Origin: Flammeovirga kamogawensis | GTDB lineage: Bacteria > Bacteroidota > Bacteroidia > Cytophagales > Flammeovirgaceae | Reading direction: 5' to 3' | NCBI RefSeq assembly: GCF_018736065.1 | Contig: NZ_CP076129.1 | Span: 1-64,000 of the forward strand | Length of the DNA stretch: 64,000 nucleotides | The notes under the pieces: generated by a model | Databases searched by the model: none | What the model was told of the DNA's origin: nothing | The model's input: only the letters and a program-made list of their open reading frames with translations | In this document: piece after piece, positions 55,907 to 64,000 of the stretch | How positions within the stretch are numbered: the stretch's first letter is position 1 | How the letters are laid out: each line of letters begins with the position of its first letter | Made by a program: the position numbers and the translations under genes

Positions 55907-56110
55907 ATGTTTTACAACAATCAATCTAACCCTGAATCTTTTCAGGATAATGACTACGGCTTTATAGTGGACGAAAATGAAACTGAAAAGGAAGAAATAT
56001 TACAATCTTTAGAAACATTTTTTGATAACCCATTCCATTCAGAAAGCGCTTCAATGTACAGAGAAGACATGAATGAAATGGTCGATGAAATAGAATTCAG
56101 ATATTTTTAA
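55907..56110 (+). CDS. Small acidic protein of unknown function
   Basis: 67 residues, strongly acidic (about 20 Asp/Glu against 3 Lys/Arg), no signal peptide or membrane span: DNDYGFIVDENETEKEEILQ and EDMNEMVDEIEFRYF. It lies directly upstream of the acid-resistance cluster, in the same direction, with its own promoter candidate and 142 bp between. A role in that cluster is possible but unproven. Confidence 0.5.
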   Translation: MFYNNQSNPESFQDNDYGFIVDENETEKEEILQSLETFFDNPFHSESASMYREDMNEMVDEIEFRYF

Positions 56111-56252: not shown

Positions 56253-57680
56253 ATGGAAAGTAAATCTACAAAAGTAGGCTTAGGCGGTTTGGTCGCCATT
56301 GTATTTGGCTCTATGATAGGAGGAGGTATATTTAATATCCCTCAGAATATGGCAGCTGAAGCATCATTAGGAGCAGTAATTATATCATGGATTATTTCTG
56401 GTATAGGCGTAGGTATGTTAGTTTATACTTTTAAGACCTTATCAGAAGAACGTTCAGATATTAGTTCAGGAATTTATGGATATGCAAAAGCAGGGTTTGG
56501 CCGTTTTGTAGGTTTTAATTCTGCTTGGGGATATTGGATAAGTGCTGCCTTAGGTAATGTAGCATTTGCAGTTATGTTAAACGATGCATTTGGTGTTTTC
56601 TTTCCTGTTTTATTAAAGCATGGTTGGCAAACAATAGTTTTTGGTTCTGGATTAATTTGGTTAATGAATTTTATCTCTCTTTTTGGAACAGAGAAAACAT
56701 CATTTTTAAATACAGTCTCAACTATTGCTAAATTCGTAGGTCTTATAATCGTTATTGGTATTTTAGTTATCTCATTTAAGTTTGATATATTCACTTCAGA
56801 TTTCTGGGGAAATGCCTATCACTTAGATGGTTTAGCAGAGCAGATTAAATCAACAATGTTGGTTACTTTATGGTGCTTTATTGGTATTGAAGGTGCAGTA
56901 GTTATTTCATCAAAAGCAAAAAAATCTTCTGATGTTGGTACAGCGACAACAATTGGTTTTATTGCTGCATTAGTAATGTATGTATTGATTTCTGTATTAG
57001 CATTTGGTATAGCACAACAACCAGAATTAGCAAAATTATCAGATCCATCAGCAGGTGCTTTATTGGGTATTGCAGTAGGATCTTGGGGAGCTACTTTTGT
57101 AAATATAGCAGTAATCATTTCAGTATTAGGTGCATGGATAGCATGGACTATCTTAGTAGCTGAAGTACCTCATGATGCAGCAAAAGACGGTGTGTTACCT
57201 GCTTTCTTTAAAAAAGAAAACAAAAATGGAGCACCATCAACAGCTTTATATATTTCTTCAAGTATTATGCAAGTGGCAATGATCTTTGTGGCGTTTGCAA
57301 GCGATGTTTATATGGCTGCAATTGATATAGCAGGGGTAATGATTTTACCAGCTTATCTACTTTCATCAATGTATTTATTGAAAGGTGCTAGCTTAAAACA
57401 ACTATTAAAAAATAAAAAGAATAGAAAAATAGCAGCCTTCATTGGTTTACTATCAACACTTTATTGTTTATGGTTAATCTATGCTGCTGGTATTTCATAT
57501 ATGCTTACCTCTTTTATCTTCTATGCAATCGGAATTCCTTTTTACAGATTAGCACATAAAGATGAAGTAAAAGCAGGAAAACAAATTTATACTAGAAACG
57601 AACGCCTTTTGGAAATATTCATCATAATTATGGCATTAGTAGCTGTAGTGATGATAGCAACTGGTCAGGTTTCTTTCTAA
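56253..57680 (+). CDS. Basic amino acid/polyamine antiporter (ArcD/AdiC-type, APC)
   Basis: 475 residues, about 12-13 membrane helices. Electrogenic exchange of a basic amino acid for its amine or ornithine. VGLGGLVAIVFGSMIGGGIFNIPQNMA (helix 1, GSMIGGGIF substrate motif) and GIYGYAKAGFGRFVGFNSAWGYWISAALGN match ArcD-type arginine/ornithine antiporters. CFIGIEGAVVISSKAKKSSDVG (helix 6) follows the family. First gene of the cluster: the ClC gene begins 13 bp after it, and an arginine-type decarboxylase follows, so a likely job is substrate-in/product-out exchange with protons consumed inside. Confidence 0.9.
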   Translation: MESKSTKVGLGGLVAIVFGSMIGGGIFNIPQNMAAEASLGAVIISWIISGIGVGMLVYTFKTLSEERSDISSGIYGYAKAGFGRFVGFNSAWGYWISAALGNVAFAVMLNDAFGVFFPVLLKHGWQTIVFGSGLIWLMNFISLFGTEKTSFLNTVSTIAKFVGLIIVIGILVISFKFDIFTSDFWGNAYHLDGLAEQIKSTMLVTLWCFIGIEGAVVISSKAKKSSDVGTATTIGFIAALVMYVLISVLAFGIAQQPELAKLSDPSAGALLGIAVGSWGATFVNIAVIISVLGAWIAWTILVAEVPHDAAKDGVLPAFFKKENKNGAPSTALYISSSIMQVAMIFVAFASDVYMAAIDIAGVMILPAYLLSSMYLLKGASLKQLLKNKKNRKIAAFIGLLSTLYCLWLIYAAGISYMLTSFIFYAIGIPFYRLAHKDEVKAGKQIYTRNERLLEIFIIIMALVAVVMIATGQVSF

Positions 57681-57693
57681 TAGGAATAGAGTC

Positions 57694-59007
57694 ATGGAAA
57701 GAGAGACTACATTATCACATAATCAATCAAGAATATTATTTCTTCTTTCTTTAACGGTTGGTGTATTGGTTGGTCTGTTAGGTGGAATATACAATTTAAT
57801 AACAGACAATGCAGTGTCGATTTTATCCTCTCTTCAACAAAATTCTTCTTCCGTTTTAGTCATATCAGTTATGGCAATGTGTACTTTCTTATCCTTTTAT
57901 CTGGTTAAAAAGTTTGCACCAGAAGCAGGAGGAAGCGGAGTTCAAGAAGTTGAGGGTAGCATGATTGGTGTTAGAAAAATAAAATGGAAACAAGTAATAC
58001 CAGTTAAGTTTATTGGTGGTATTGCTGCACAATTCGGAGGTATGGTAGTAGGTCGTGAAGGCCCTACCATACATCTGGGAGGTGCAATAGGAGAAGGTCT
58101 TTCTAAGTTATGGAAATATAAAGTGAGCGATTTAGATGTTAAGAATCACTTACTAGCATGTGGAGCCGGAGCTGGTTTAGCTGTTGCTTTTAATGCACCA
58201 TTAGCAGGTATATTACTTGTAATTGAAGAGATGAGACCTTCTTTTAAATTCAACTTTAGATCATACACAGGCATTATGTTAGCTTGTTATGTAAGTACTT
58301 GGGTAGCTCAGTTTATTGTCGGAAATAAAGTAGAAGTACCTGTAGTTGATGTTCAACTTTTATCAGGAATAGATTTTTATCATTTTATTGGTTTTGGTTT
58401 TTTCCTAAGTATTGCTGCAGTAATCTTCTTAAAGTCCATTAAATCTGGATACAAAGTTTTTGATTACTTAAAAAGTAGATCACCTTATTTAACCTTTACA
58501 GTTGTTGCTTTATTATTTGCCGTTGTTTATCAGATAAATCCAGATTTAAATGGTTCTGGAATGGCACTTTTAAGAACACATTTAGAAGGTGAAAATAGTT
58601 TAAGTTGGATTATCTCTACAGCCTCTTTAAGGTTTTTAGGAGGAATTATTTCATTCTGTAGTGGGGTAGTTGGTGGAGTGTTTTCACCGATGTTGTATTT
58701 AGGTTCTTCACTAGGAGAAATTTATTCAATGTTACTACCAAATTTAACTCCCTATTCTACAGAGTTTGCAATTTTAGGTATGGCAGGCTTCTTTACAGCA
58801 GTAGTTGGAGCACCAGTTACAGGAGTTATTTTAATTGCTGAGTTGACCGGGCAGTACGAATTAATATTACCGTTAGGCATAGTCTGTTTAGTATCGAATT
58901 TTATAACGCACAACCTTGGTGCAAAACCATTGTACGAGAGTTTATTAAAACGAGATATCAGGTTATTTGGTAACGAAAAATTAAAGAAAAATACAGAAAC
59001 GAAATAG
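57694..59007 (+). CDS. ClC-type H+/Cl- exchanger
   Basis: 437 residues. Cl-/H+ antiporter of the ClC family. The selectivity filter reads GGSGVQEVEG (usual GSGIPxxEG, Pro changed to Gln). The gating glutamate in GREGPTIHLGG is Glu122, equivalent to E148 of E. coli ClC-ec1. The internal proton glutamate in IEEMRP is Glu179 (E203). The Cl--coordinating Tyr in KPLYESLL is Tyr414 (Y445). These show an exchanger, not a channel. In E. coli, ClC exchangers act as the charge shunt during extreme acid resistance. Here the gene sits between antiporter and decarboxylase genes, 13 bp after the former. Confidence 0.93.
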   Translation: MERETTLSHNQSRILFLLSLTVGVLVGLLGGIYNLITDNAVSILSSLQQNSSSVLVISVMAMCTFLSFYLVKKFAPEAGGSGVQEVEGSMIGVRKIKWKQVIPVKFIGGIAAQFGGMVVGREGPTIHLGGAIGEGLSKLWKYKVSDLDVKNHLLACGAGAGLAVAFNAPLAGILLVIEEMRPSFKFNFRSYTGIMLACYVSTWVAQFIVGNKVEVPVVDVQLLSGIDFYHFIGFGFFLSIAAVIFLKSIKSGYKVFDYLKSRSPYLTFTVVALLFAVVYQINPDLNGSGMALLRTHLEGENSLSWIISTASLRFLGGIISFCSGVVGGVFSPMLYLGSSLGEIYSMLLPNLTPYSTEFAILGMAGFFTAVVGAPVTGVILIAELTGQYELILPLGIVCLVSNFITHNLGAKPLYESLLKRDIRLFGNEKLKKNTETK

Positions 59008-59027
59008 TAGTTTCTATAAAAAATATA

Positions 59028-59047
59028 ATTGAGGAATTGATCTCAAT
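59028..59047 (+). repeat. Small inverted repeat between ClC and decarboxylase genes
   Basis: ATTGAG-N8-CTCAAT in the 70-bp intercistronic gap, 31 bp before the decarboxylase ATG. It may shape the leader of that gene. Confidence 0.35.
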
Positions 59048-59077
59048 AGATCTCAAAAAATAAAAATTAATAATATC

Positions 59078-61357
59078 ATGAATTTACAAGAATGGCCTTT
59101 ATTAGTCGTATCAGAAAAACAAATTGATACATTTGAAAGCAATAGATTAAAAGAATTAATTACTCAATTAAATACTGATAATATTAAGACAATCTTATCT
59201 AAAAAATTAAAACATGTGGTTGATTTATGTACGAGTCAACGTGAAATATCTGGTGTTTTAGTAGATTGGAATTTAGATTTATCAGTTGAAGAAAAAACAA
59301 GTGTAATCTTAGAGTTACGTAAAAGATTTCCAAGATTACAGATTTTCATTTTAGCAGAAAAAGCTGCTCCAGAAGAATTACCAACAGCAGTATTAGAAGC
59401 ATCGAATGGCTTTTATTGGTTAGATGACGACACTATTACGTTTATGGCGGGTCGTTTAACGCACATGATTAAAGAATATGTAGAAGGTAATTATGGTCCA
59501 TTTTTTAAAGGACTTGTAAATTATGTTGATGAGTACAAATATGCATGGCATACACCAGGCCATATGGGTGGTGAAGGATTTAAGAAAAGCCCTGCAGGTA
59601 CTGCTCTTTACAACTTCTTTGGTGAGAATACTTTAAGATCTGATTTATCTATTTCTGTTCCAGATTTAGGTTCTTTATTAGACCATAGTGGTCCGATTGG
59701 TGACTCTGAAAAATTTGCATCAGAAACATTTAATTCAGATAAATCTTACTACGTTTTAAATGGTACTTCTACAGTAAATCAAATTATTTGGAGAAGCCAA
59801 GTTGCACAAAACGATTTAGCTTTAGTAGATAGAAATTGTCATAAATCTTTGAATTATGCAATGGTAATTACTAATGCAAAACCAATGTACATGATGCCAA
59901 GAAGAAATGCTCTAGGTATTATTGGACCAGTTAAAATGTCTGAGATGACAGCCACTACAGCTTTACATAAAAAATCTGCTTCTAATTTAGTTGGAGAAGA
60001 TGAAATGGGTAAAGAAATTGTAATGTCTGCATTAACAAACTCTACTTATGATGGTCTTGCATACAATGTAAGAAAAGTTAAAAAAGAATTGGGAGACCAT
60101 GTTAAATACATGCACTTTGATGAGGCTTGGTATGCTTACGCTCGTTTCCATCCAATTTATGATGGTTTCTATGGCATGACTCCTGATGAAAATAAAGAAC
60201 ATCCTCCAGTGTTCACTTCACATTCAACACACAAGTTATTGAATGCATTTTCTCAAGGTTCTATGTTGCACATTAAAGATGGTTCTAATGAAAAAATTGA
60301 TCCAGACGAATTTAATGAAGCATATATGATGCACGGGTCAACTTCTCCAAACTACCCAATGATTGCTTCTTTAGATGTATCTACTAAAATGATGCATGAT
60401 AATGGAGAGCAAATGAGTCATGATAATATCTTAGATGCAATTAGTTTAAGACAAAGAGTTGCACAAATGAACGATGAGTTTTCTGCAAAAGAAGATTGGT
60501 TCTTTGATATGTGGCAACCAACAACATATAAAGGTGAAAAATTTAGTAAAGTAGCTGCAGAAACTTTAGCGTCTAATCAAGATGCTTGGGTATTAAACCC
60601 AGACGATGCATGGCATGGATTTAATGGTTTAGAAGATGATTTTGTACTTCTTGATCCTATTAAATTAACCTTCACTACTCCAGGTGTAAACGCTGACGGT
60701 TCTTACACAGAACAAGGTATACCAGCTGGAATTGTATCAGATTACTTAATAAATAAAGGGATTGTAACAGAAAAAACAGATTCTTACTCTTTCTTAATGT
60801 TACACTCATTTGGTACAACAAAAGGTAAACAAGGTGAATTGTTATCTGCTTTATTGAACTTCAAAAAAGATTATGATAACAACACATCATTAAGATTAAT
60901 TTTCCCTAACCTTTTAGAAACTGATGCAGCTTTTTATGGTAAAATGGGCTTAAAAGATCTTTGTGATAAAATGCATACTTTCTTTAAAGAGAACGACTTC
61001 TTGAACCAAATGCAACAAGCATTCGAGATTCTTCCACAACAAGAAATGAAACCTGCAGAAGCCTACGAACAAGTAGTGCGTAAGAATGTAGAATATGTGT
61101 ACTTAGAAAACATGATGAAAAAAGTACCAGCAGTAATGATCGTACCTTATCCTCCAGGCATTCCAGTAATGATGGGCGGTGAAAGAATGGACGAGTCTAC
61201 TAAAGCAATACATAATTATCTTTCAATTTTAGAAAAATATGAAAATGCTTTTCCTGGTTATGAAAAAGATATCCATGGTGTTGAAAGAGATGTAGTAGAC
61301 GGTGTTATCAAATACAAAACACTTTGTATTAAAGATGCTCCTGAGTTAGAAGCATAA
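59078..61357 (+). CDS. adiA: Arginine decarboxylase, AdiA-like (Orn/Lys/Arg family)
   Basis: 759 residues (E. coli AdiA 756). PLP enzyme of fold type I. N-terminal wing (about 1-130), then core: TPGHMGGEGF, GTSTVNQIIW, DRNCHKSLNYA, FDEAWYAYARFHPIY and the PLP lysine in SHSTHKLLNAFSQG. That lysine is residue 386, the same number as in E. coli AdiA. FDEAWYAYARF is the AdiA form; lysine and ornithine enzymes have FDSAW instead. The C-terminal domain ends in YPPGIPVMMGGE. Product agmatine plus CO2 consumes one proton in the cytoplasm. Between the ClC and porin genes, 70 bp after the former. Arginine is the likely substrate, though lysine/ornithine cannot be excluded without assay. Confidence 0.93.
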   Translation: MNLQEWPLLVVSEKQIDTFESNRLKELITQLNTDNIKTILSKKLKHVVDLCTSQREISGVLVDWNLDLSVEEKTSVILELRKRFPRLQIFILAEKAAPEELPTAVLEASNGFYWLDDDTITFMAGRLTHMIKEYVEGNYGPFFKGLVNYVDEYKYAWHTPGHMGGEGFKKSPAGTALYNFFGENTLRSDLSISVPDLGSLLDHSGPIGDSEKFASETFNSDKSYYVLNGTSTVNQIIWRSQVAQNDLALVDRNCHKSLNYAMVITNAKPMYMMPRRNALGIIGPVKMSEMTATTALHKKSASNLVGEDEMGKEIVMSALTNSTYDGLAYNVRKVKKELGDHVKYMHFDEAWYAYARFHPIYDGFYGMTPDENKEHPPVFTSHSTHKLLNAFSQGSMLHIKDGSNEKIDPDEFNEAYMMHGSTSPNYPMIASLDVSTKMMHDNGEQMSHDNILDAISLRQRVAQMNDEFSAKEDWFFDMWQPTTYKGEKFSKVAAETLASNQDAWVLNPDDAWHGFNGLEDDFVLLDPIKLTFTTPGVNADGSYTEQGIPAGIVSDYLINKGIVTEKTDSYSFLMLHSFGTTKGKQGELLSALLNFKKDYDNNTSLRLIFPNLLETDAAFYGKMGLKDLCDKMHTFFKENDFLNQMQQAFEILPQQEMKPAEAYEQVVRKNVEYVYLENMMKKVPAVMIVPYPPGIPVMMGGERMDESTKAIHNYLSILEKYENAFPGYEKDIHGVERDVVDGVIKYKTLCIKDAPELEA

Positions 61358-61380
61358 TAGTTGGATTAATCACATACAAC

Positions 61381-61409
61381 GAAGAGGAGTTGTTTTGCAA
61401 TTCCTCTTC
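61381..61409 (+). promoter_or_regulatory. Stable intercistronic hairpin before the porin gene
   Basis: GAAGAGGA / TCCTCTTC (8 bp) extended by G-U and TTG / CAA to 12 pairs with a 5-nt loop. No T-run follows, so it is not a terminator. It lies between decarboxylase stop and porin start, where it could stabilise the mRNA or mark a processing site. Confidence 0.55.
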
Positions 61410-61424
61410 ACTACAAAAATCATC

Positions 61425-62582
61425 ATGAAAAAGAATTTTATTTTATTAGCGGCTTTAGTTTTACTAATTATTGCTAATGTAAATGCACAAGACAAAACAT
61501 TATCAAAACAAGACTCATCTACAGTTAAGGAATCGAATTATTGGCAATTCTTTAAAAAGAACCTTTCATTAACAGTAGACGCAAGAATGGATTTTACTCA
61601 TTTAGGATACCAAGATGATATGAACGGTGTCTATAATTCAGACCAACGTTTTCAATTTTCAGATTTTCGTATTGGAATGAGTGGCATGCTAAATAAGAAT
61701 TTTGGTTTTAACTTCTTATATAGTCCAAACGCATCAGGTTTAGGAGAGAATAATATTTCTGATGATATTCTTTATGCAAACATTACTTACTTATCTGATA
61801 ATGGACATTGGTTTTTCCAAGCAGGTAAAGGCTTCTTAAATGTAGGTACAGCAGAGCAATATTACGATCCCAATGATGTATACACGTATAGTATAATTGG
61901 TAACAATTTAGGTGTTTACAAAACTGGGGTAACGGTTCAGTACAATACTACAAGCGGGCAGTCTTTTGGTGCTCAGGTAGTTAATGGAGTGGCAGATACT
62001 TTAGGTAACCAAATGAACATGGAATATAATCTGTACTGGTACGGCTTTATAGTGAAAGATAAGATTAACACATTTGCCAGTGTAACAACTATAAATGATA
62101 AATCTGATTTAGCAACAAGTACACCTTATACCGTTAACCTGGGTTTGCAATGGATGTTAGGCGACTTTATTATTGATACAGATTATGCTGTTGCTAAGAA
62201 TATGCCTAATTTCTATGATAATGCTTTATACCAATCTGCACCAATTAAAGTAATGTATAACGGTAAAAAGTTCAAGCCATATATTAAATATATCTACAAC
62301 AATGTTCGTTTTGATGATCCTAATTATGAGATTTCAATGGATAACGGAACAGTTCAAGATATAGAAGATGCGAATGTGCATACTATCGAAGTAGCACTGC
62401 AATATTACCCAATCGAAGGTAAAAATTTAAGATTCCATTTAGTAGGGTCTTATACTACCGATGCAAATATTATGTACGGTACACCAGAAAATAATTATCC
62501 AGATTCACGTCAACATTACAACGCACAGTTCCAAGTTATGGCTGGTGTACGTATTGGTTTTGATGCACTGAAAGGATGGTAA
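61425..62582 (+). CDS. Outer-membrane porin, phosphate-selective porin O/P-like
   Basis: 385 residues from the ATG giving MKKNFILLAALVLLIIANVNAQ (signal peptide). The body is all beta-strand: LSLTVDARMDFTHLGYQDDM and FSDFRIGMSGMLNKNFGFNFLYSPN are like the OprO/OprP porin family, with GHWFFQAGKGFLNVG later. It ends VMAGVRIGFDALKGW, terminal aromatic. Expected to be a 16-strand trimeric porin. Placed in the acid-resistance cluster, it may give arginine or agmatine passage through the outer membrane; the link is inference. Confidence 0.75.
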   Translation: MKKNFILLAALVLLIIANVNAQDKTLSKQDSSTVKESNYWQFFKKNLSLTVDARMDFTHLGYQDDMNGVYNSDQRFQFSDFRIGMSGMLNKNFGFNFLYSPNASGLGENNISDDILYANITYLSDNGHWFFQAGKGFLNVGTAEQYYDPNDVYTYSIIGNNLGVYKTGVTVQYNTTSGQSFGAQVVNGVADTLGNQMNMEYNLYWYGFIVKDKINTFASVTTINDKSDLATSTPYTVNLGLQWMLGDFIIDTDYAVAKNMPNFYDNALYQSAPIKVMYNGKKFKPYIKYIYNNVRFDDPNYEISMDNGTVQDIEDANVHTIEVALQYYPIEGKNLRFHLVGSYTTDANIMYGTPENNYPDSRQHYNAQFQVMAGVRIGFDALKGW

Positions 62583-62671
62583 GTAGACACTTACTAACAA
62601 TATTAAATTGTAGAACGCTAAATGTTCTACCCATGTTATTAATAAAACAACTCTTTTAAAAAAATAATATT

Positions 62672-64000
62672 ATGCAAAAAGTTACAAAAAATTACCGCGT
62701 TGGAAAATGGCTTTCATCTGATCAAAAATTTCTTGAAAGTTGGTTAGAAAAATTAATTCATCATGTTGACAATAACCCTAAAAAATTATTACCTCCTGTA
62801 CAAGATTTAAAAGACCTTATAGAAGGAGAAAATTATTACAAAAATTTATTTACAAATATGTTTAATGAGGTTCCTAAAAAGGCTCCTTATAAAAACGACC
62901 CAACAAATAAACCTCAAATTAGAGATTACGATCATATGTTATCATTGATGAATGAAATTATGACGCAACCTCCTTACTTTAATAAAACAGGTTTAGTTGG
63001 TTTCCCTATTAATGCAATTTTAGACTGGCCAATGGGTACAGTATCTGGATATGTAGCATTTTTAGATAAAAAAGTAAACGAGAAATTAAAAGCAATTCTT
63101 CAATATTGGAGTGCATTTTTATCAAGTCAAGAATCTGCTAAAGTATTAAATACAAGCGAGTCTGGTTGGTTAAATGATTATGCTTTAGAGCAAATGTGTG
63201 ATGCCGCTTATGGATCAAATTTCTTAGATTTATTTCAAACAAAATCGGATAAGAAAGAAGAAAGCTATGGTTTTACATCATGGGATAATTTCTTCACAAG
63301 ACAATTTAAAGAAGGTGTAAGACCTGTTGCAGGAGTAGATAATGATAACATTATTGCCAATGCATGTGAGTCTGCTCCTTACAGATTAGTAACTAATGTT
63401 GCAGAAAAAGAGGAATTCTGGATTAAAGGACAACCGTATTCTTTAACTGATATGTTAGCAGGAGATGAACTTACATCTCAATTTGTAGGAGGTACTGTGT
63501 ATCAAGCCTTCTTAAATGCATTAAGCTACCACAGATGGCATAGCCCAGTTAGCGGTACTATTAAGAAAATTGTTTTTGTGGATGGTACGTATTATTCAGA
63601 AAGTTATTATGAAGGATTTTCTAACCAACAAGGTCCAGATGATTCTGCTCCAAACAACTCTCAAGCCTTTTTAACAGAAGTAGCAACAAGAGCTATTGTT
63701 TTTATTGAAGCTGATAATCCTGCAATTGGACTAATGGCGTTTATGTCGATTGGTATGGCCGAAGTATCATCAAATGATGTAACGGTAAAAGAAGGTCAAC
63801 ATGTATCCAAAGGAGAACAATTAGGTATGTTCCACTTTGGTGGGTCTACTCACTGTTTATTCTTTAGACCAGAAGTAGAGTTAGCTTTTGATTTACACGG
63901 TCAAAATGCAAGTCTTGAATCACATAATATTCCATTAAGATCAAAAATTGCAGAAATATATACTAAAACTCCTGACACAAAAGAAGTAACGGTCCAAGCG
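62672..64000 (+). CDS. PsiD-like pyruvoyl amino-acid decarboxylase (PSD family), 3' end beyond window
   Basis: 443 residues visible, open at the window edge. Resembles fungal L-tryptophan decarboxylase PsiD (about 439 residues), a branch of the phosphatidylserine decarboxylase family with the extra N-terminal PSDC-related domain: GWLNDYALEQM, YGFTSWDNFFTRQFKEGVRPV, ACESAPYRL, SYHRWHSPVSGTI (His287, His290), AIVFIEADNPAIGL, VKEGQHVSKGEQLGMFHFGGST. The self-cleavage Ser392 in FGGST should form the pyruvoyl group. No membrane helix is seen, which suits a soluble amino-acid decarboxylase better than a lipid enzyme. Fifth gene of the cluster, 89 bp after the porin gene. Substrate unknown. Confidence 0.85.
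   Translation, partial: MQKVTKNYRVGKWLSSDQKFLESWLEKLIHHVDNNPKKLLPPVQDLKDLIEGENYYKNLFTNMFNEVPKKAPYKNDPTNKPQIRDYDHMLSLMNEIMTQPPYFNKTGLVGFPINAILDWPMGTVSGYVAFLDKKVNEKLKAILQYWSAFLSSQESAKVLNTSESGWLNDYALEQMCDAAYGSNFLDLFQTKSDKKEESYGFTSWDNFFTRQFKEGVRPVAGVDNDNIIANACESAPYRLVTNVAEKEEFWIKGQPYSLTDMLAGDELTSQFVGGTVYQAFLNALSYHRWHSPVSGTIKKIVFVDGTYYSESYYEGFSNQQGPDDSAPNNSQAFLTEVATRAIVFIEADNPAIGLMAFMSIGMAEVSSNDVTVKEGQHVSKGEQLGMFHFGGSTHCLFFRPEVELAFDLHGQNASLESHNIPLRSKIAEIYTKTPDTKEVTVQA

Follow-up and report, generated by a model that had tools for sequence, protein, structure and literature searches.

The window analysed here, the first 64,000 nucleotides of the Flammeovirga kamogawensis contig NZ_CP076129.1, ends in five consecutive plus-strand genes that are best explained as a whole, and we think probably, as a unit of amino acid decarboxylation and antiport that consumes cytoplasmic protons. 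The genes encode, in order, an antiporter, a ClC H+/Cl- exchanger, an ornithine/lysine/arginine (OKR) decarboxylase dependent on pyridoxal phosphate (PLP), a probable outer-membrane pore and a pyruvoyl decarboxylase of the phosphatidylserine decarboxylase (PSD) family. The notable part of the unit is the PSD-family enzyme together with its recurrent antiporter. AdiA and AdiC, which a preliminary description of this DNA saw brought together here, are absent.

A conserved five-gene unit

The genes occupy positions 56253-57680, 57694-59007, 59078-61357, 61425-62582 and 62672 onward, separated by 13, 70, 67 and 89 bp, in agreement with the five co-directional reading frames and 13-89 bp gaps of the preliminary description. 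Gene 5 is still open at the end of the window; its stop lies at 64345 (L002:8346), giving a full length of 557 aa. Family assignment with Pfam and NCBIfam identified genes 1, 2, 3 and 5 and left gene 4 without a family.

All five genes are present in the same order in a genome of the same genus (G324), with protein identities of 94, 91, 97, 90 and 96%. The genes are under purifying selection, with ratios of nonsynonymous to synonymous substitution (dN/dS) between the two genomes of 0.051, 0.098, 0.038, 0.051 and 0.030 for genes 1 to 5. Of the gaps, the two that precede the OKR and porin genes scarcely differ between the genomes, unlike the two that precede the ClC and PSD-like genes; upstream, both genomes share genes for an SDF-family symporter and a TonB-type receptor, while the downstream genes are not shared. 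Gene order and selection in this sister genome bear out the earlier view of a decarboxylase/antiporter unit with a ClC exchanger and a probable outer-membrane protein. The search for the same five-gene order in Bacteroidota, which the preliminary description had proposed as a check, found it kept in G324 and in no other genome searched. When the insertion site was compared with the genome G351, the latter showed a TonB-receptor orthologue of about 70% with different neighbours.

Gene 5 is probably an arginine decarboxylase

The product of gene 5 (62672-64345) consists of the PSDC (PF12588) and PS_Dcarbxylase (PF02666) domains, and its self-cleavage serine, S392 in the motif GGST, is invariant across relatives. 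These relatives came from a scan of genome contigs, from which the best 80 of 212 were kept, many of the loci being cut by contig ends; the comparison of S392 and of the fold took in the window's protein together with 31 of the 80, making 32. The preliminary description had rightly placed a second decarboxylase here, its PSD-family pyruvoyl nature having gone unnoticed.

The nearest solved relative is the arginine decarboxylase of Aspergillus oryzae (9jer and 9jf5; 295.7 bits), one PDB entry of which is titled 'complexed with arginine'; PsiD follows with 223.4 bits and E. coli PSD with 44.9. Identity is 43.0% to the A. oryzae enzyme, 38.8% to PsiD and 20-21% to PSD. The residues D118, W119, Y277, E310 and Q331 of gene 5 are common to the A. 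oryzae enzyme, which likewise has a PSD-family fold, and are absent from PsiD. We regard it as rather likely, judging from these sequences, that gene 5 takes arginine and gives out agmatine. A separate PSD gene is present in the same genome (G000:C1:2105506-2106012).

In an 88-row quick tree, gene 5 groups with the loci L072, L073 and L087 with a Shimodaira-Hasegawa-like approximate likelihood ratio (SH-aLRT) of 94, and the place of the A. oryzae enzyme in this tree rests on a long branch. Of 18 genomes of the family, two have a PSD-like gene at 96% or more, two others one at 44% and another two one at 26-30%. Some PSD-like match is present in 37 of 296 genomes searched across the phylum; five of these, not counting the window's own, give long matches of 49-63%, one of them frame-split. 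Two genomes of the same genus encode PSD-like proteins (L214:7662-9716 and L215:8719-10755, about 44%) that carry another kind of C-terminal extension, about 250 residues long, and no antiporter match was found within the stretch examined.

The C-terminal residues of gene 5, from about 438 to 557, resemble PA-IL (LecA), with an E value of 9e-4 to a LecA-type chain and a Pfam PA-IL score of 21.4 bits that does not reach the cut-off of 22.5. The A. oryzae enzyme, which is fungal, differs in having no such tail in the aligned part (to chain residue 462). Similar C-terminal stretches, matching the gene 5 tail at 44-52%, are found at L012, L013, L022 and L032 in genomes of the same class, on other proteins without a confident Pfam match.

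Neighbours of PSD-like genes in other genomes

An antiporter of the TIGR00905 type, to which gene 1 belongs, adjoins the PSD-like gene in 10 of the 80 loci (L072, where it is two genes away, L073, L104, L107, L110, L111, L113, L121, L123 and L125), and in three more, all Photobacterium, it lies 2.8-7.4 kb away. These counts and those of deiminases below are tblastn matches with chosen probes, the L121 antiporter among them. The ten pairs are co-directional in four loci (L072, L073, L104, L110) and convergent in six. Genes resembling AguA and AguB, the latter also by Pfam CN_hydrolase, are present at L072 and L113, and L130 has a different permease (24%) with an AguB-like gene. The Veillonellaceae locus L072 carries on one strand an OKR remnant, the antiporter, the AguA-like and AguB-like genes and the PSD-like gene.

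A PAD_porph-type deiminase adjoins the PSD-like gene in 12 of the 80 loci (L082, L089, L091-L095, L101, L112, L118, L141 and L142), the L118 match being a 155-residue piece. A Pfam scan covering 98 of 142 immediate neighbours returned AA_permease_2 nine times, PAD_porph seven times and Peptidase_C69 four times. The cluster of PSD-like gene and deiminase, mostly with a C69 peptidase, recurs across several phyla and was not met in the literature surveyed.

Antiporter-PSD pairs are also carried by plasmids. Three Photobacterium damselae records show such a pair by coordinates, one of them having been inspected directly. On a conjugative plasmid of Enterobacter cancerogenus (L202), the pair lies about 6 kb from a gene annotated as 'acid-sensing' EvgA, with genes for DUF308, YfdX and an EmrA/K-type pump in between. 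YfdX and EmrKY have a role in acid. This related pair near EvgA and YfdX lends indirect support, by analogy, to a use of the window's unit against acid. The closer plasmid relatives of gene 5 are labelled, where annotated, 'phosphatidylserine decarboxylase family protein'. Among the literature matches listed, at the level of titles and abstract beginnings and with most subscription papers outside the search, none presented bacterial PSD-family enzymes as antiporter-linked decarboxylases.

The antiporter and the ClC exchanger

Gene 1 encodes a basic amino acid/polyamine antiporter of the amino acid-polyamine-organocation (APC) family and of the ArcD-like type (475 aa). It scores 506.9 bits against TIGR00905 (cut-off 409.05) and 177.5 bits against the AdiC equivalog, below the cut-off of 574. 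In a 30-row tree a split of 100/100 separates it from AdiC, CadB and PotE. The name AdiC was therefore rejected for gene 1, and the AdiC-type exchanger of the preliminary description found no support, in the equivalog score either. Gene 1 forms one group (100/99) with L072, L073 and a second copy in its own genome, and it falls together with two annotated ArcD rows. The AdiC residues Y93, N101, W202, E208 and W293, positions that we selected for comparison, are conserved in gene 1 as Y94, N102, W207, E213 and W298.

The second copy (contig C1, L213:8788-10224) is 59% identical, stands alone with no adjoining decarboxylase, and is the nearest relative of gene 1 outside G324. For this reason the antiporter was rejected as proof of joint transfer with the decarboxylases; gene 1 may be a resident of the genome. 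At an E value of 1e-60 or better, 1 of 395 genomes of the phylum has this antiporter type, namely the window's own with its two copies. The same type is found with OKR enzymes in Salmonella and Caballeronia.

Gene 2 encodes a ClC exchanger of 437 aa (PF00654) that exceeds the cut-off of the ClcA equivalog (374.5 against 350 bits) and finds its best solved matches in ClcA-type structures. E122 lies in GREGPT and E178/E179 in IEEMRP, so that the intact E122 and E179 noticed earlier were confirmed, and the protein aligns with a ClC exchanger structure; we take these two to be the gating and the proton glutamate.

The OKR decarboxylase and the probable pore

Gene 3 encodes a winged PLP-dependent enzyme of 759 aa with wing (PF03709), major (PF01276) and C-terminal (PF03711) domains, and Lys386, cited earlier as a sign of a working enzyme, is indeed present in the motif HSTHK. 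Its best solved match is 6q6i (46% identity), titled 'biodegradative arginine decarboxylase' in the PDB and presumably the LdcA of P. aeruginosa. In a 26-row tree with long branches flagged elsewhere, gene 3, its G324 counterpart and the L072 fragment form a group (100/99) that lies outside the 10-row AdiA clade (99/98) and does not belong to the clade of CadA/LdcC either; it is otherwise a separate branch, and the tree does not settle its order relative to 6q6i. Columns were counted as diagnostic if four AdiA-clade rows share a residue that CadA, LdcC and 6q6i lack; in gene 3, 22 of the 37 are lysine-type, 4 AdiA-type and 11 neither. On tree and columns the name AdiA was rejected, and the AdiA-like arginine enzyme of the preliminary description could not be upheld. 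According to excerpts of PMC8983666 and PMC7806604, LdcA acts on lysine and has its role in making polyamines, not in the response to acid. The lysine-type columns, perhaps ancestral, and this literature on LdcA point to lysine or arginine as the substrate of gene 3 with roughly even chances, leaning slightly to lysine.

Among 118 genomes of the order, two have a winged OKR enzyme at high identity, and among 395 of the phylum a single one does, the genome of the window itself; six further genomes of the order and eight of the phylum have a different OKR type or a fragment at 27-35%. A search for related loci with the gene 3 protein alone returned no relative. At L072:5551-6390 the C-terminal third of an OKR decarboxylase, 58% identical to gene 3 and abruptly cut, lies upstream of the intact antiporter, AguA-like, AguB-like and PSD-like genes, and would reflect either decay or an assembly artefact. 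No complete OKR gene of this type was found in 61 genomes of the same order as L072, where the known fragment matched at 61% and the other listed matches at 31-35%.

Gene 4 encodes a protein of 385 aa from a lineage-specific family without a Pfam or NCBIfam match. Its signal-peptide-like N-terminus and C-terminal Trp, both read by eye, fit an outer-membrane beta-barrel, which we consider its probable nature. A fold predicted from the one sequence (pLDDT, the per-residue confidence, 33.4) was useless and was set aside. The same genome has three paralogous stretches (45, 38 and 34%), of which the two less similar ones cross stop codons, and 296 genomes of the phylum gave four places in the window's own genome and one weak match in another.

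Transcription signals and flanking genes

A 13-bp hairpin on the plus strand of the OKR-porin gap (61381-61409; -21 kcal/mol, z -5.64) has no U-tract, and its stem is identical in G324 (z -3.48). It is possibly an mRNA stabilising or processing element, and may give the two halves of the unit different mRNA levels. The claim that no terminator separates the genes holds only in part, given this U-tract-less hairpin and, in the porin-PSD gap, a weak terminator-like site (62610-62630, z -2.3) that has no counterpart in G324. Terminator-like sites in the region number six by scan against 3.1 expected from shuffling. The promoter scan carried no information, with 36 sites against 40.7 expected from shuffling.

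Neither the small reading frame at 55907-56110 nor the downstream hydrolase and HlyD/TolC/FUSC genes were accepted as members of the unit, as none has a match in the sister locus L065. The latter three, coding for an adaptor of the HlyD type, a channel of the TolC type and a FUSC transporter, form an efflux set at L002:10071-14881. In L065 the unit is followed by an apparent IS3-type transposase pair, named by eye. Composition gave no sign of recent transfer, the operon genes having 33-34.5% G+C and the window 31.3%. The antiporter, OKR and PSD trees each group the window with the L072 locus, and three genes grouping with the same distant locus suggests that a module may have passed between phyla, in one direction or the other.

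Proposed mechanism and alternatives

In the scheme that we propose, basic amino acids would pass the outer membrane through the gene 4 pore, and the antiporter would bring in a basic amino acid in exchange for an amine of higher positive charge. The PLP enzyme and the unrelated decarboxylase with its self-made pyruvoyl group would each consume a proton and release CO2, and the ClC exchanger would relieve the charge built up by this virtual proton pump. The unit is most likely one of acid defence, or at least of proton-consuming decarboxylation. Its observed basis is gene content and order, catalytic residues, purifying selection and the recurrent linkage of PSD-like genes to antiporter and guanidino-type enzymes; from these we infer substrates, direction of transport, co-transcription, use against acid and cargo of the pore.

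Several points weigh against this scheme. Neither the ClC nor the porin gene was matched by tblastn probes in any of the 80 PSD-like loci, so that their link to the unit rests on two sister genomes. No antiporter, deiminase or AguB match was found in 54 of the 80 loci, many of them short. Closely related PSD-like genes in Lactobacillus kefiranofaciens (L087) and on plasmids of L. intestinalis and Plesiomonas have no adjoining antiporter, and the short flanks of four more from the same class (L006-L009) show other genes by eye. The L072 OKR gene is a C-terminal remnant, and the fold of gene 5 fits PsiD as well as the arginine enzyme. Many lysine-type residues of gene 3 may simply be ancestral, because they are common to other proteobacterial OKR enzymes of unassigned specificity. 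The antiporter type also accompanies arginine deiminase genes; its company with these and with OKR enzymes fits arginine exchange and is no proof of it for the window. No regulator gene was seen within the five-gene unit, and the hairpins may split the transcript.

Within the proposed scheme, and compatible with it, the OKR enzyme could be a second arginine decarboxylase, the two isoenzymes sharing one substrate at different pH or PLP supply; we give this sub-case appreciable but less than even weight. At L072 the OKR remnant stands with the antiporter, the AguA-like and AguB-like genes and a PSD-like gene that is intact, an arrangement suggestive of the replacement of one arginine enzyme by another. 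The diagnostic columns of gene 3 and its place outside the AdiA clade speak against this sub-case.

It is unlikely that the unit instead makes and exports polyamines such as agmatine and cadaverine for growth, biofilm or signalling, with the ClC exchanger in general chloride or pH balance. At L072 and in the L113 locus, the genes resembling AguA and AguB that accompany the PSD-like one would yield putrescine, and the purpose reported for LdcA in the excerpts of PMC8983666 and PMC7806604 is polyamine production; however, no agmatine-processing gene is among the five or directly downstream, an antiporter is present, EvgA is encoded close to the Enterobacter pair, and proton consumption driven by decarboxylation agrees with a ClC shunt (PMC10394335, in excerpt). 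A PsiD-like activity of gene 5 on an aromatic amino acid, which would leave the antiporter with two quite different exchanges, is less likely still, since the sequence is closer to the arginine enzyme and the telling neighbours are guanidino-type and basic amino acid genes. That gene 5 is a true phosphatidylserine decarboxylase remodelling membrane lipids under acid, as the PF02666 domain and the plasmid label might suggest, is very improbable given the separate PSD gene and the 20-21% identity to PSD.

Comparison with known systems

The excerpted PMC8465708 describes clusters, some of them in Bacteroidota (Ornithobacterium), in which a PLP-dependent arginine decarboxylase adjoins a pyruvoyl histidine decarboxylase and a single antiporter of the AaxC type serves both (adiA/aaxC/hdcA). 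In that part it makes no mention of a ClC exchanger, porin or lectin-like tail, whereas the window's unit has a ClC exchanger, a probable porin and such a tail. Both have PLP and pyruvoyl decarboxylases with one antiporter; the pyruvoyl enzyme is of the PSD family in the window and hdcA in those clusters. Two decarboxylases with one antiporter are thus already known, and the PSD-family enzyme, the ClC exchanger, the probable pore and the lectin-like tail make the window's unit a new version of that design. Excerpts of PMC2720952 describe the Chlamydia aaxABC genes as a co-transcribed outer-membrane porin, pyruvoyl arginine decarboxylase and antiporter, the enzyme AaxB being a self-cleaving protein of 195 aa. 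The window likewise joins a probable porin, a pyruvoyl decarboxylase and an antiporter, a likeness at the level of description; aaxABC has no PLP enzyme and no ClC exchanger. With PF12588 and PF02666, gene 5 is not of the AaxB type; we take AaxB to belong to another family. The joining of all parts in one operon, put forward in the preliminary description, has partial precedents in aaxABC (PMC2720952, in excerpt) and adiA/aaxC/hdcA (PMC8465708, in excerpt).

The logic of decarboxylase, antiporter and ClC shunt is that of E. coli acid resistance system 3 (AR3; AdiA-AdiC) with ClcA/ClcB, although the window's decarboxylase and antiporter lie outside the AdiA and AdiC clades. In E. coli the AR3 and ClC genes are scattered. 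ClC exchangers as partners of decarboxylase/antiporter systems are known from excerpts of PMC6909576 and PMC10394335; in Lactobacillus reuteri they affect amine output, internal pH and membrane potential of a histidine decarboxylase/antiporter system (PMC6909576, in excerpt). The substrate there is another, and the same excerpt names two ClC genes apart from the hdc cluster, whereas the ClC gene of the window lies inside the unit. A Lichenicola plasmid combines an outer-membrane barrel and an OKR enzyme with an antiporter of 43% and an arginine decarboxylase of the pyruvoyl kind, and a Vibrio pelagius plasmid has OKR, adiA and porin genes in line; pores and OKR enzymes thus co-occur more than once. 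The window's porin had no match in either plasmid locus.

More broadly, and with close to an even chance of being right, several phyla would carry a mobile acid-defence pair of PSD-family pyruvoyl arginine decarboxylase and ArcD-like antiporter that is unrecognised in the literature searched, and many genes labelled 'phosphatidylserine decarboxylase family' would be amino acid decarboxylases. In this genus the pair would be joined by a PLP Lys/Arg decarboxylase, a ClC shunt and a local porin, and its pyruvoyl enzyme would have acquired a lectin-like tail, making a self-contained proton pump with two cofactors and two substrates. Such a pair would give a plausible function to a widespread and probably misnamed bacterial enzyme family, part of which would be tied to pH defence, and would extend the fungal type of PSD-family arginine decarboxylase to bacteria. 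With pore, exchanger, decarboxylases and charge shunt compactly together, the requirement for a ClC exchanger in decarboxylation-driven proton consumption would become testable in one operon.

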